NCBI GenBank assembly: GCA_945947155.1 | Contig: CAMEXM010000015.1 | Location: 1-34,817, forward strand | DNA from: Polynucleobacter meluiroseus | GTDB lineage: Bacteria > Pseudomonadota > Gammaproteobacteria > Burkholderiales > Burkholderiaceae | Direction of reading: 5' to 3' | DNA length: 34,817 nt | Part shown: in pieces, positions 8,695-32,136 of the stretch | How the letters are laid out: each line of letters begins with the position of its first letter | Numbering within the stretch: position 1 is the first letter of the stretch | Position numbers and translations under genes: made by a program | The notes under the pieces: generated by a model | What the model was told of the DNA's origin: nothing | Databases searched by the model: none | Seen by the model: only the letters and a program-made list of their open reading frames with translations

Positions 8695-9861
8695 CTAATG
8701 CCAAGAGCCTAGCTGTGCATTCAGCTCAGCAAGAGTGATGCATCGATTATCAACATGGACCATGCCAGCAGAGCGCATGTCCTGAAAGCCGCAGCGCTGA
8801 ACTTGGCATGTTAATTCAGCAAAATTTGCATTACTCTCAAATGCGCTGGCAATGGCATTTGTGAATGGTAAAACTTCATGGATGCCAATCCGATCAAATA
8901 GGCCTGTTCCGCCACACAGCAGGCAGTCATCCTTTGACTGGTTAGCATGGCATGCAGAACAGATTTGACGTGCTAGGCGCTGTGAGCTAACGCAGCGCAG
9001 GCAAGCCCTCAGGACATCATTGGCTATACCTAAGCTACGTAGCCGTTGAATGCTGGCCAGAGCGCCCCGTGTGTGTAAGGTACTCAATACCAAGTGCCCG
9101 GTTTGCGCAGCCTGCATGGCAAGCTCAGCAGTCACCGCATCCCGAATTTCACCAATCATGATGACATCGGGATCTTGCCGAAGCAGTGCCCGAATAATGC
9201 CATTGAAATCCAAACCTGCTTTTGGGTGGTAGGCAATCTGATTGATACCCGCAAGACGGATCTCGATCGGATCTTCGATGGTGCATACATTTCGGCCGCC
9301 GGTATTTAACTGGTTTAAGCAGCTGTAGAGTGTGCGAGTTTTGCCGCTGCCAGTCGGCCCTGTAACGAGTATCAGGCCATCAGGCTGAGCAATGGCATCT
9401 GTGAAGTGGGCCAATTGCTGTGCATGTAGGCCAAGCAAACCTAAATCCAAAGCTGTGCTGGGAGGTGGCAATAAACGCAGCACGGCTTTTTCCCCATGCA
9501 GTGTGGGCATGATGGATACGCGGCAATCGATATTGGGGCGCGTGTAATTGAGCCCCACTGATAGTCTGCCATCCTGGGGAATGCGTTGCTCGGCAATATC
9601 CAATCTGGCCAGTATTTTGATGCGGGCAATGATGCGCTCGTGCTCGACCACTATGGGGACTTGAAGTATTTGTAATAGGCCATCAACGCGGATACGAATG
9701 ACTGTTTTGTATTCAAATGCTTCGACATGAATATCGCTGGCGCGCGCCTGAATCGCTCGGGTAACGATAGCTTGCCAAGCCCGAATAACCATAAAGTCAT
9801 CATTTTGTGTGGTCAAATTAATAGAGTACCTTGAATAATGTTGAAGTAAGAGACTATGCAT
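8695..9861 (-). CDS. pilB: Short type IV pilus assembly ATPase PilB/GspE
   Basis: A hexameric cytoplasmic ATPase that powers pilus or pseudopilus assembly. Walker A is G168-T175 (GPTGSGKT). The Asp box is CTIEDPIEI, Walker B is DPDVIMIGEIRD, and the His box is QTGHLVLSTLHT. A zinc motif follows with two Cys-x-x-Cys pairs (CSAC, then CLLC). At 388 residues it lacks the roughly 150-residue N-terminal MshEN/GspE-N region of full PilB proteins and starts close to the secretion-domain motif (ASDIHVE at residues 41-47). It is the first gene of the minus-strand run. No recognisable -10/-35 pair stands out in the 95 bases before ogt. Confidence 0.92.
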   Translation of the reverse strand: MHSLLLQHYSRYSINLTTQNDDFMVIRAWQAIVTRAIQARASDIHVEAFEYKTVIRIRVDGLLQILQVPIVVEHERIIARIKILARLDIAEQRIPQDGRLSVGLNYTRPNIDCRVSIMPTLHGEKAVLRLLPPPSTALDLGLLGLHAQQLAHFTDAIAQPDGLILVTGPTGSGKTRTLYSCLNQLNTGGRNVCTIEDPIEIRLAGINQIAYHPKAGLDFNGIIRALLRQDPDVIMIGEIRDAVTAELAMQAAQTGHLVLSTLHTRGALASIQRLRSLGIANDVLRACLRCVSSQRLARQICSACHANQSKDDCLLCGGTGLFDRIGIHEVLPFTNAIASAFESNANFAELTCQVQRCGFQDMRSAGMVHVDNRCITLAELNAQLGSWH

Positions 9862-29188: not shown

Positions 29189-29234
29189 GCCATTTACTTA
29201 CTGGTAGTGAAACGATGGAATTTTGGAGAATACT

Positions 29235-30419
29235 ATGTTGAATTGGGAAGAAGAAGTCGCGCCAGCAATGGCTAAGGTCGGTTTAGCGCCGCAGCCAGCA
29301 GTTCAGCCACATAAAGCGCCGCAGCCAGATCAAGTGGCAATCGCACCCCAAACTGCTACACCTGTGCCAGTAGAGGCTGCTAATTTATCTGGTGGCGCAG
29401 CCTTGCGTGTCAATGCCGCTGATAAGCGCGTGATTAATGCGAAGACTGACGTAAATCAGCTGGTTCCATTTAAATATAAGTGGGCTTGGGAGAAGTATTT
29501 GGCGGGTTGTGCAAACCACTGGATGCCACAAGAGATCAATATGAACCGCGATATCGCGCTTTGGAAAGATCCAAATGGCTTGACAGAAGATGAGCGCCGC
29601 ATCATTAAGCGCAACCTTGGCTTCTTCACAACTGCAGATTCGTTGGCCGCAAACAATATTGTTTTGGGTACTTATCGTCACATTACCGCTCCAGAATGCC
29701 GCCAATACCTATTGCGTCAGGCTTTCGAGGAGGCAATTCATACCCACGCCTACCAATATATTGTGGAATCGTTAGGTTTAGACCAGTCTGAAATCTTTAA
29801 TGCATACAACGAGATTGAGTCCATTCGCAATAAAGACCAGTTCTTAATTCCGTACATTGATGTGCTAACGGACCCTAACTTTAAGACCGGCACATTAGAA
29901 AACGATCAAAAGTTACTGCGTTCGCTGATTGTTTTTGCCTGCGTAATGGAAGGTTTGTTCTTTTATGTTGGTTTTACGCAAATCCTTGCAATGGGTCGTC
30001 AGAACAAAATGACAGGCGCTGCTGAGCAGTATCAATACATCTTGCGTGATGAGTCTATGCACTGCAATTTTGGCATCGATTTGATTAATCAAATCAAGCT
30101 GGAGAACCCGCAGTTATGGACTTCCGCGTTCAAAGAAGAGATCCGCGGCATCTTCGAACAAGCAGTCGAATTAGAGTACCGTTATGCCGAAGATACGATG
30201 CCTCGGGGTGTGCTCGGATTGAATGCGCCGATGTTCAAAGGCTACCTCCGATACATCTGTAATCGTCGGTGTATGCAAATAGGACTTGACGCAATGTTCC
30301 CAAATGAAGAGAATCCATTTCCATGGATGTCAGAAATGATCGATCTGAAAAAAGAACGAAACTTTTTTGAGACACGCGTTATTGAGTATCAAACTGGTGG
30401 TGCGCTGAACTGGGAGTAA
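29235..30419 (+). CDS. nrdB: Ribonucleotide reductase small subunit (chlamydial-like clade, with radical tyrosine)
   Basis: NrdB holds the dimetal cofactor that starts the radical chain in NrdA. I start at the ATG at 29235, which follows GGAG by 6 bases, giving 394 residues; the frame is open from a TTG 12 bases earlier. The first 65 or so residues are rich in Pro, Ala and Gln. The core ([65 protein letters not shown]) closely resembles Chlamydia R2. Metal ligands include D135, E166 and H169. The position that is Phe in Chlamydia is Y173 here, and the first ligand is Asp as in class Ia. The C-terminal tail ends GGALNWE. Confidence 0.97.
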
Positions 30420-30749: not shown

Positions 30750-30935
30750 ATGGCAATCGCCAAAAAGAAACCAGCTGCAAAGAAACCTGCTGCAAAGAAA
30801 AAAGTAGCTGCTAAGAAGCCTGCTGCAAAGAAAAAAGTAGCTGCTAAGAAGCCTGCTGCAAAGAAAGTAGCAAAGAAGAAGCCTGCTGCTAAAAAAGCTG
30901 CTGCTAAGCGCAAGCCTGCTGAAAAAAAAAAGTAA
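30750..30935 (+). CDS. Histone H1-like Lys/Ala/Pro-rich DNA-binding protein, zero-frame product
   Basis: The zero-frame product is 61 residues, almost only Lys, Ala and Pro (MAIAKKKPAAKKPAAKKK), like the C-terminal-domain-type histone H1 proteins of betaproteobacteria, which bind and compact DNA. An ideal AAGGAG lies 7 bases before the ATG. The frame ends at TAA (30933-30935), right after a run of ten A. The codons GAA AAA AAA AAG TAA contain the heptamer A_AAA_AAG in register. The remaining 44 codons of a plausible H1 protein continue in the -1 frame to 31066 (next entry), which would give 105 residues. Either this is a regulated or slippery gene, or a one-base loss in the A run has cut it. 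Confidence 0.8.
   Translation: MAIAKKKPAAKKPAAKKKVAAKKPAAKKKVAAKKPAAKKVAKKKPAAKKAAAKRKPAEKKK
30783..30848 (+). repeat. 33-base tandem repeat within the H1-like gene
   Basis: Two adjacent copies of a 33-base unit encoding KPAAKKKVAAK differ by one base (AAA versus AAG in the first codon). A third, partial copy follows. The repeat explains the 11-residue period of the protein and could change copy number by slippage. Confidence 0.85.
30926..30932 (+). promoter_or_regulatory. Candidate -1 frameshift heptamer A_AAA_AAG
   Basis: The last seven bases before the zero-frame TAA read A AAA AAG in the correct register, the same heptamer as in E. coli dnaX. A possible 7-pair stem (30939-30945 with 30959-30965, one G-U) begins 6 bases downstream. 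The site lies at the end of ten consecutive A, so RNA polymerase slippage is also possible. Confidence 0.5.
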
Positions 30936-31066
30936 GTAAGCCTGCTGCCAAGAAGAAAGCGGGCTCTGCTGTAAAAAAGCCCGCGGCTAAGAAGCCTGCT
31001 GCTACAACGCAAACTGCGTTGAATCCAGCTGCTGCTTGGCCTTTCCCAACAGGCACACGCCCATAA
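30932..31066 (+). other. -1 frame continuation of the H1-like protein (44 codons)
   Basis: Entered by a -1 shift at the A run, this frame reads VSKPAAKKKAGSAVKKPAAK, more Lys/Ala repeats, then ALNPAAAWPFPTGTRP and a TAA. It has the same composition as the zero frame. It ends in a non-basic proline/aromatic tail of the kind I recall for complete betaproteobacterial H1-like proteins. It has no start codon or ribosome site of its own. That marks it as the missing C-terminus, not as a separate gene. Confidence 0.75.
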
Positions 31067-31094: not shown

Positions 31095-31122
31095 AAATGG
31101 GGTCCCTCGGGACCCCATTTTT
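31095..31122. terminator. Bidirectional terminator between the H1-like gene and the PfkB kinase gene
   Basis: AAATGGGGTCCC, loop TC, GGGACCCCATTT with a further TT: a perfect 12-pair stem just after the H1-like frame. It also lies 55 bases after the stop of the convergent kinase gene, so it can serve both. Confidence 0.9.
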
Positions 31123-31176: not shown

Positions 31177-32136
31177 TTAAAACCCAAATCCAAAAGCGGT
31201 TTTGAATTGATCTTTAATGTGATCCAGGTTCAATTGGTGGTTTTGTGGACCTTGATGGGCAATTTTGATCGAGCCCATCAGGCTAGCAAGGCGACCAGTC
31301 GTCTCCCAGTCCATGCCATTTTCCAAGCCAAACAGGAGTCCACCCCGAAAGGCGTCGCCACACCCGGTTGGATCAATCAGCTGTGCGGCTTTGACCGGTG
31401 GAATGGCAATCGATTTACCGCCCGTATAAATCTGGGCACCTTCTGCACCTTTGGTAACAATCAGCGCTTTAACGCGCTCACCCAATTGCGTAAGCGATAA
31501 GCCTGTCCGCTTGGAGAGCATTTCACCCTCATAGTCATTGACGACCAGGTAGCTTGCTAGTTCAGTAAGTTCTAAGAGCTCAGGACCATCGAACATGGGT
31601 AAACCCTGACCTGGATCAAAAATGAACGGAATTTGCGCCTCTTCTAATTGATGGCAATGTTCCCACATACCAGCACGACCATCGGGCGCAACAATCGCTA
31701 AGGCAATAGGCGTACTTTTCTTCTGGGTACGCGCAGCCGTGACATCGCTGACCTGATTCAGGTGTGATTCATTCATGGCGCCGGGATGAAAGGCCGTAAT
31801 CTGATTGTTCGAGAGATCGGTGGTGATCATCGCCTGTGCTGTAAATGCACTCTCCATGGTTCGAATGTGTGCCGTATCAATTTGCAAGTCCCTGAGGCGA
31901 TCAAGGTAAGGTGCGGCATCACCGCCCACGGTTGCCATGATGACTGGCTCACCGCGGAGTAACTTGAGGTTGTAAGCAATATTGCCAGCACAGCCACCGA
32001 ATTCACGGCGCATGCTCGGCACTAAAAAAGCAACATTCAGAATATGAATTTGGTCTGGCAGGATTTGATCCTGAAAGCGGCCTTCAAAGTTCATGATGGT
32101 GTCGTAGGCGATGGAACCGCAAATAAGGCTAGCCAT
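31177..32136 (-). CDS. PfkB/ribokinase-family carbohydrate (adenosine-like) kinase
   Basis: A cytoplasmic sugar or nucleoside kinase of 319 residues. The N-terminal PfkB signature is near residue 46 (FGGCAGNIAYNLKLL). The C-terminal signature is D255-PTGCGDAFRGG with D261 as the catalytic base, and VTKGAEGA precedes it. PfkB proteins in this gene position in Burkholderiales are usually annotated as carbohydrate or adenosine kinases; the substrate cannot be read from the sequence. The start MASLICGSIAYDTIM is normal. It lies 26 bases after the PrmA-DUF3426 gene on the same strand, at the end of the accC-prmA run. Confidence 0.9.
   Translation of the reverse strand: MASLICGSIAYDTIMNFEGRFQDQILPDQIHILNVAFLVPSMRREFGGCAGNIAYNLKLLRGEPVIMATVGGDAAPYLDRLRDLQIDTAHIRTMESAFTAQAMITTDLSNNQITAFHPGAMNESHLNQVSDVTAARTQKKSTPIALAIVAPDGRAGMWEHCHQLEEAQIPFIFDPGQGLPMFDGPELLELTELASYLVVNDYEGEMLSKRTGLSLTQLGERVKALIVTKGAEGAQIYTGGKSIAIPPVKAAQLIDPTGCGDAFRGGLLFGLENGMDWETTGRLASLMGSIKIAHQGPQNHQLNLDHIKDQFKTAFGFGF

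Follow-up and report, generated by a model that had tools for sequence, protein, structure and literature searches.

A histone H1-like gene of Polynucleobacter keeps its C-terminal tail out of frame, probably for programmed -1 ribosomal frameshifting

The histone H1-like gene of the DNA analyzed here, a window of 34,817 nucleotides that is contig 15 of a draft genome of Polynucleobacter meluiroseus (1.87 Mb in 107 contigs), stops directly after a run of adenines, and its Lys/Ala repeat continues in the -1 frame. Is such a gene damaged or misread, or does the cell make two proteins from it? An earlier note, made from the letters of the window, proposed two H1 forms produced by ribosomal frameshifting or by RNA polymerase slippage, and gave an indel mutation or a sequencing error as alternatives. 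Conserved programmed frameshifts are few in non-mobile bacterial genes, dnaX, prfB and chlD being the usual examples. From the comparison of sequences described below, we consider it very likely that the gene is expressed through a frame change of some kind and, with clearly less confidence, probable that this is a conserved programmed -1 ribosomal frameshift in the gene of an H1-like nucleoid protein.

The gene lies between nrdB, which encodes the ribonucleotide reductase beta subunit and served as upstream anchor (29223-30419, plus strand; NCBIfam NF005550, E 3.3e-210), and a convergent gene for a PfkB-family kinase (31177-32136, minus strand; Pfam PF00294, E 2.7e-38), a fragment of which was used for the tree. 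Its zero-frame ORF (30750-30935, plus strand) runs from the ATG at 30750 to the TAA at 30933-30935 and encodes 61 residues of a Lys/Ala-rich, H1-like and tail-less sequence. The reading of this site in the earlier note holds in the sequence: the zero frame ends GAA AAA AAA AAG TAA, and the slippery heptamer A_AAA_AAG (30926-30932, plus strand) sits in the zero-frame register within an A10 run (30922-30931, plus strand). Through this run a second in-register heptamer, A_AAA_AAA (30923-30929, plus strand), overlaps the first. The stop codon and a short spacer, TAAGTA, follow at 30933-30938 on the same strand. The 44-codon continuation that the note had described begins in the -1 frame with GTA at 30932, reads VSKPAAKKK...LNPAAAWPFPTGTRP and ends with a stop codon at 31064-31066 (30932-31066 in all, plus strand).

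The layout of the family NF038053 (hist_H1_lk_Burk), a Lys/Ala repeat with a conserved C-terminal tail, is present in the window. The zero-frame ORF matches positions 25-81 of this model (E 3.3e-5) as well as Pfam HC2 (E 3.4e-6), below the cut-off in both cases, and the -1 frame tail matches positions 151-195 (E 3.2e-10). Since they match different parts of NF038053, the short ORF and the tail look like two pieces of one protein. Scored separately, the pieces give 24.2 and 40.6 bits against a cut-off of 80 bits, and because each falls below it, the tail may go unannotated by automatic pipelines in most of these species. In the gap between the H1 gene and the kinase, a GC-rich inverted repeat followed by T's (31097-31118) was noticed by eye; it looks like a terminator shared by the two convergent genes, and is absent from the output of the scan that gave the hairpin at 30959-30984 discussed below. 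Elsewhere, on contig 46 of genome G000 (9495-9649; L002, 1400-1645), the end of a second Lys/Ala-rich ORF lies, as judged by eye, directly 5' of a polyphosphate kinase 2-like gene; AlgP, another H1-like protein, has been linked to polyphosphate granules in Pseudomonas.

We then read the same locus across the genus. Among 186 genomes searched, 167 had an nrdB match and 150 were read 3' of nrdB; the tail was readable in 143 of these, the contig ending too early in the other seven (L012, L153, L186, L192, L213, L221 and L222). A sequence pattern found 142 of the tails, and the remaining one (G032, with WPSPTG) was found by inspection. The tail lies in the -1 frame after a run, G and TAA in 115 of the 143 genomes, with A9 in 109, A8 in four, A10 in the window and an interrupted A6 in G032; counted by the pattern, [A8-10]G-TAA with a -1 tail occurs in 114 of 142. 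Among the single-contig assemblies, 51 of 62 carry the out-of-frame site. The usual site is thus A9, GCA AAA AAA AAG TAA, and the A10 of the window is unusual; in the window, GAA takes the place of the GCA or GTA of its nearest relatives, and the frame relation is unchanged. The tail is in frame in 24 of the 143 genomes. Two others (G018, L147; G050, L216) have A8, and their tail, apart from lying in the +1 frame, is intact; they stand in different places of the tree and could be recent losses, errors, or cases of slippage in another direction. The last two, the drafts G053 and G056, have a -1 tail with the run elsewhere and then TAG, and were set apart as unclear. In G056 (L167), whose tree neighbors include in-frame genomes, a different A_AAA_AAG precedes the TAG and would be either a new shift site or an assembly error. 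The comparison of run length and frame that the earlier note had put forward as a check therefore gave, in place of relatives with the tail always in the zero frame and no slippery run, a site that is out of frame in most of the genus genomes read.

Outside the genus the arrangement is different. We read 62 loci (L048 to L113 without the genus members L048, L049, L053 and L068, the last placed inside the genus by the nrdB tree) and found the tail in frame at 52. At the other ten it was not found in the stretch 3' of nrdB: the Lys/Ala-rich ORF is cut by the contig end in L073, L087 and L105; L100 has masked bases, and in another reading its tail is in an open frame; and no Lys/Ala-rich ORF was found in the stretch after nrdB in L050, L051, L052, L061, L086 and L101. 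Three of these six loci are from Cupriavidus (L050, L052, L101) and two from Ralstonia (L061, L086); many other Burkholderiales have the gene there. An order-wide search for the tail in 399 sampled genomes matched 44, seven of them in the genus; seven of the 37 non-genus matches were read and all seven have the tail in frame, and a few of the remaining 30 have short open frames. Over the 143 readable genus genomes and the 62 outside loci, the frame shift was seen only inside Polynucleobacter, and the predicted tail-less form appears to be peculiar to this genus among the genomes examined.

The site itself is highly uniform. An in-register A_AAA_AAG followed by a stop ends the zero frame in 116 of 116 genomes with a -1 tail, and the heptamer with its stop was no criterion for finding them. 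In G032 (L271, ~688-705), the run is broken to AGA AAA AAG (A6), and both the heptamer and the -1 tail are kept; the four out-of-frame A8 genomes also retain the heptamer. Since it is kept with A8 and with A6, the heptamer, not the length of the run, is the invariant part. The A at -9 to -2 and the G at -1 in the 113 tree genomes follow from the selection criterion (A8 or longer plus G) and are no evidence of conservation. The A at -10, which lies outside A_AAA_AAG, is kept in 110 of 114 genomes; the tree shows a single change at it, from GCA to GCT in the A8 clade, and 14 and 18 changes at the third positions one and two codons further upstream. The TAA is kept in 114 of 114 genomes, and the bases 3' of it change little.

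Elsewhere in the gene, in-register A_AAA_AAR heptamers are depleted. Neither AAAAAAAAG nor AAAAAAAAA occurs among the 357 upstream Lys-Lys-Lys triplets of the 114 genes, and the longest A run upstream of the site is at most 7. With the site excluded, an AAA-Lys is preceded by an A-ending codon in 39 of 1057 cases, and an AAG-Lys in 279 of 1111 (Fisher p 9e-50, a value that is too small because related genomes and repeats were taken as independent); at the shift site itself the preceding codon ends in A in 110 of 114. At least one further in-register heptamer is present elsewhere in 32 of the 114 genes. An upstream Shine-Dalgarno-like stimulator is an optional feature of programmed -1 frameshift genes, and no Shine-Dalgarno-like 4-mer was found at -30 to -10 in any of the 114.

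For the tail, selection was assessed by counting parsimony changes on the kinase-fragment tree of 113 genomes; G089 (kinase fragment shorter than 300 bases) and G032 lie outside these counts. The last 15 codons of the tail (32-46) have 5, 2 and 103 changes at codon positions 1, 2 and 3, a strong signature of protein-level purifying selection in the -1 frame, and on account of this pattern the out-of-frame tail is very probably translated. Its family sequence is AAWPFPTGxRP, with WPFPT in all 114 canonical tails; G032 has WPSPTG instead of WPFPTG, and its tail may be decaying. Two loci, L266 (G377) and L264 (G284), keep a WPFPTGxRP tail with almost no Lys/Ala repeat. Because the tail is present there nearly without the repeat, it probably has a function of its own, and no other part of the family may be as well conserved.

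A 3' stimulatory structure 5-8 nt downstream is often, not always, present at bacterial frameshift sites, and E. coli dnaX also has a downstream stem-loop. In the window, the stem that the earlier note had placed 6 nt 3' of the heptamer can indeed form, with 8 pairs between AGCCTGCT (30939-30946) and AGCGGGCT (30958-30965), making the hairpin at 30939-30965 (plus strand) a candidate 3' stimulator. For the 48 nt that follow the AAG, the folding energy is -16.1 kcal/mol (z -2.23), and 5 of 200 shuffles were as good. In the main clade, a stable hairpin begins 6-7 nt 3' of the heptamer; in 66 of the 99 genomes of this clade no window of the gene is more stable than the 45-mer after the site, and this 45-mer is among the lowest 5% of windows in 80 of the 99, as against 3 of 11 in an early-branching clade and 0 of 4 in another. 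Set against 200 synonymous recodings, 45 distinct regions have a mean z of -1.77 under the codon usage of the kinase and of -1.34 under that of the gene itself. The seven inner pairs can all form in 75 of the 91 genomes whose loop has no indel, and in 8 of 8 whose loop is longer by 3 nt. In a search for covariation, the stem showed only one-sided changes, which either preserve or break a pair, and no double compensatory ones. RNAalifold, run on 78 distinct rows, gave a weak consensus (-2.8 kcal/mol); in Rfam, two matches stayed under the threshold and no frameshift element was found.

Third positions change 24 times in codons 1-11 and 28 times in codons 15-22, as against 101 times in codons 24-31 and 103 times in codons 32-46; the low synonymous change in codons 15-22 reaches beyond the hairpin. 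At tail column 10, all 93 of 93 Ala codons are GCG, a codon that makes up 0.5% of Ala codons upstream, 15.9% in the later tail and 15.1% in the kinase fragments. An alternative hairpin, GCGGGC...GCCCGC (30959-30984), came out of the scan as terminator-like on the minus strand; it and the shift-site stem have one arm in common and are mutually exclusive. It could have been kept for another reason, such as minus-strand termination, and this would also constrain synonymous change.

The frame arrangement, its conservation, the selection in the tail frame and the scarcity of synonymous changes just 3' of the site are direct observations. In the mechanism that we favor, ribosomes in the zero frame would translate the Lys/Ala repeat and terminate at the TAA, so that a short, purely basic H1 is made. 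Some would move back by one base at A_AAA_AAG. The overlapping A_AAA_AAA and a tRNA-Lys(UUU) able to decode AAA as well as AAG would promote this, as would, within the main clade, the hairpin 6-7 nt downstream; the shifted ribosomes would continue through VSKPAAKK... to AAWPFPTGxRP and give a longer, tailed H1. The two-form proposal of the earlier note, open as it was to ribosome or polymerase, thus gains support from the 115 of 143 out-of-frame sites and from the selection on the tail, the two proteins themselves being predicted products. Presumably both accumulate and their ratio matters. As for the tRNA, ARAGORN was applied to 30 of the 38 tRNA loci of the nearest single-contig genome (G013), and the sole tRNA-Lys among them is UUU; the other eight loci are 82-92 nt long, the size of Leu, Ser and Tyr tRNAs. 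Likewise, a scan of 30 of the 35 tRNA loci of the A10 genome G041 gave tRNA-Lys(UUU) as the only Lys tRNA, and one of its five remaining loci is of ordinary tRNA size. A search of the 186 genomes with an anticodon-arm pattern pointed, among the matches listed, to a second tRNA-Lys (CUU) in G099, G108 and G112; we rejected these candidates, as ARAGORN found no tRNA at the three loci. Candidate locus L303, which was inspected, has no tRNA-like look.

The main rival to ribosomal slipping is that RNA polymerase adds an A on the A9 run, so that A10 mRNA would give the tailed protein and A9 mRNA the short one. The run is of the slippage type (about 9 or more A/T) in nearly all genomes, being A9 or A10 in 110 of 115, A8 in four and A6 in G032, and it is A9 in 109 although the heptamer needs only A6, the A at -10 having changed a single time against the 14 and 18 changes at the upstream third positions. 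The excess over what the ribosome needs, however, also creates the second in-register heptamer. The in-frame genomes with A10 fit polymerase slippage as well, since in 12 of 12 GTAGTT follows the run and both other frames stop at once, and the A8 genomes with a +1 tail could be served by slips in either direction. Yet the out-of-frame tail is kept by four A8 genomes and by the A6 genome G032, the latter of limited weight since its tail may be decaying; the 3' hairpin is still unmade while polymerase sits on the run; and a sole tRNA-Lys(UUU) favors ribosomal slipping at AAG. The depletion of A_AAA_AAR elsewhere in the gene follows the register, a property expected of slippage by the ribosome and not of slippage by the polymerase. 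From these points together we infer that most of the slipping is ribosomal. We regard the transcriptional reading as unlikely, and the others below differ widely in their standing.

One of them concerns function rather than mechanism and overlaps both the ribosome and the polymerase readings: under a tolerated 'savior' shift, a fixed one-base change at the run would be made good by slippage, which yields tailed protein in sufficient amount, and the short form would have no role of its own. This is conceivable, if doubtful, and is somewhat more plausible to us than transcriptional slippage. It agrees with the in-frame tail at 52 of 62 outside loci and with the several in-frame lineages within the genus (the A10 genomes, G030, G033, G119, G182 and the G049 group), and, if the change ran in that direction, the A10 clade could itself have come back into frame by one A. 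However, no genome of the GTAA[GCT]T type is in frame by an added A (G033 has A7, and G182 an extra base upstream), and the little change in the site, in the TAA (114 of 114) and in the bases that follow suggests selection for the shift itself. Phase variation, in which the length of the DNA run would vary between cells and switch the tail on and off, is very improbable: a homopolymer is there, and two A8 genomes (G018, G050) stand apart in the tree, yet a mixture of frames between species would be expected where exactly A9 is found in 109, and every in-frame A10 genome carries a different downstream sequence, GTAGTT. A sequencing error, private mutation or pseudogene, the alternative that the earlier note had kept open, can be given up almost entirely. 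The window does come from a draft of 107 contigs, and G018, G050, G053 and G056 could be errors, but the same site recurs in 115 of 143 genomes, 51 of them single-contig, and the tail is under purifying selection. Hardly more credible is a tail made as a separate small protein by reinitiation after the TAA, for which GTG in 46 of 114 tails and TTG in 89 could serve as starts: an ATG in the tail frame was found in none of the 114 genomes, 20 of the 114 tails have no ATG, GTG or TTG, and the tail is fused to the repeat in the in-frame relatives. A frame change at the A run is the simplest route to the tail.

How the two arrangements are related within the genus can be followed in part. In-frame A10 and out-of-frame A9 genomes differ by one A at the same site, and GTAGTT follows the run in each of the 12 in-frame A10 genomes; the other in-frame members include G033 (A7), G182 (a base upstream) and G030 and G119 (run gone). 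G052, an in-frame A10 genome, sits on a long branch among A9 genomes in the kinase-fragment tree, which was rooted on eight A10 genomes and cannot show A10 to be ancestral. In the nrdB tree of 110 loci, rooted on outside genera, three A10 genomes and two early A9 genomes group together (support 0.87), and the in-frame, run-less G047, G054 and G126-G128 are placed next to the main A9 clade (0.92). The shift may thus have a single origin and have been lost repeatedly, or it may have had more than one origin. Tentatively, and with the odds against it, one genus might hold both layouts of a single recoding switch, in which a one-base change flips the default H1 form. With A10, the tailed H1 would be made by default and a slip on the run would give the tail-less one; with one A fewer, the tail-less H1 would be the default, and the tailed one would need a -1 shift, with the stem-loop in the main clade. 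The A run would then set the ratio of the two forms.

If ribosomal frameshifting is indeed the mechanism, a genus-wide frameshift in a nucleoid H1-like protein would be a natural system for the origin of frameshift sites, one that offers in-frame relatives, run-length variants and clades with and without the hairpin. It would allow the question of how a frameshift site arises from a homopolymer and then acquires stimulators to be approached. Programmed frameshifts are known from few other bacterial genes, and for the putative one described here our search of the open-licence literature, supplementary files aside, turned up no paper on frameshifting in a bacterial gene of the histone-like kind. 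In the available portions of the main texts, the word 'histone' is absent from PMC3711429 and PMC4066793, and the single passage with it in PMC5009743 is unrelated.

Some known systems resemble this gene most closely. With E. coli dnaX it shares an in-register A_AAA_AAG and tRNA-Lys(UUU) as the Lys tRNA found, and it would also share a short and a long product (PMC5009743, PMC3711429). Unlike that gene, where the shift gives the short product (PMC5009743), the H1-like gene would give its long product by the shift, and it has no upstream Shine-Dalgarno-like element and mostly an A9 run. By description it can be likened to the reversed dnaX of the Chlorobium type, in which a stop directly follows the site and the long product arises by the shift (PMC5009743); in reversed-type dnaX the poly-A is 7-10 long and polymerase slippage has been suggested (PMC3711429), and one candidate has E. 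coli-like stimulators (PMC5009743). The A9 run is shared with Thermus thermophilus dnaX, where slippage is transcriptional. The T. thermophilus layout, with both other frames stopping at once (PMC5009743), is that of the in-frame A10 genomes, but T. thermophilus has two Lys tRNAs (PMC5009743), whereas tRNA-Lys(UUU) was the only one among 30 of 35 loci in the A10 genome G041. Relative to its own family, NF038053, in which the tail is in frame at 52 of the 62 outside loci, the gene of the window is split into pieces that each score below 80 bits. Finally, chlD of Mg-chelatase, different in gene and function, is likewise a chromosomal, non-mobile gene with a poly-A site; -1 frameshift efficiencies of the chlD type are 10, 40 and 63% for A7, A9 and A11 (PMC3711429), and Polynucleobacter duraquae is an example organism in the work on chlD frameshifting (PMC9227772).
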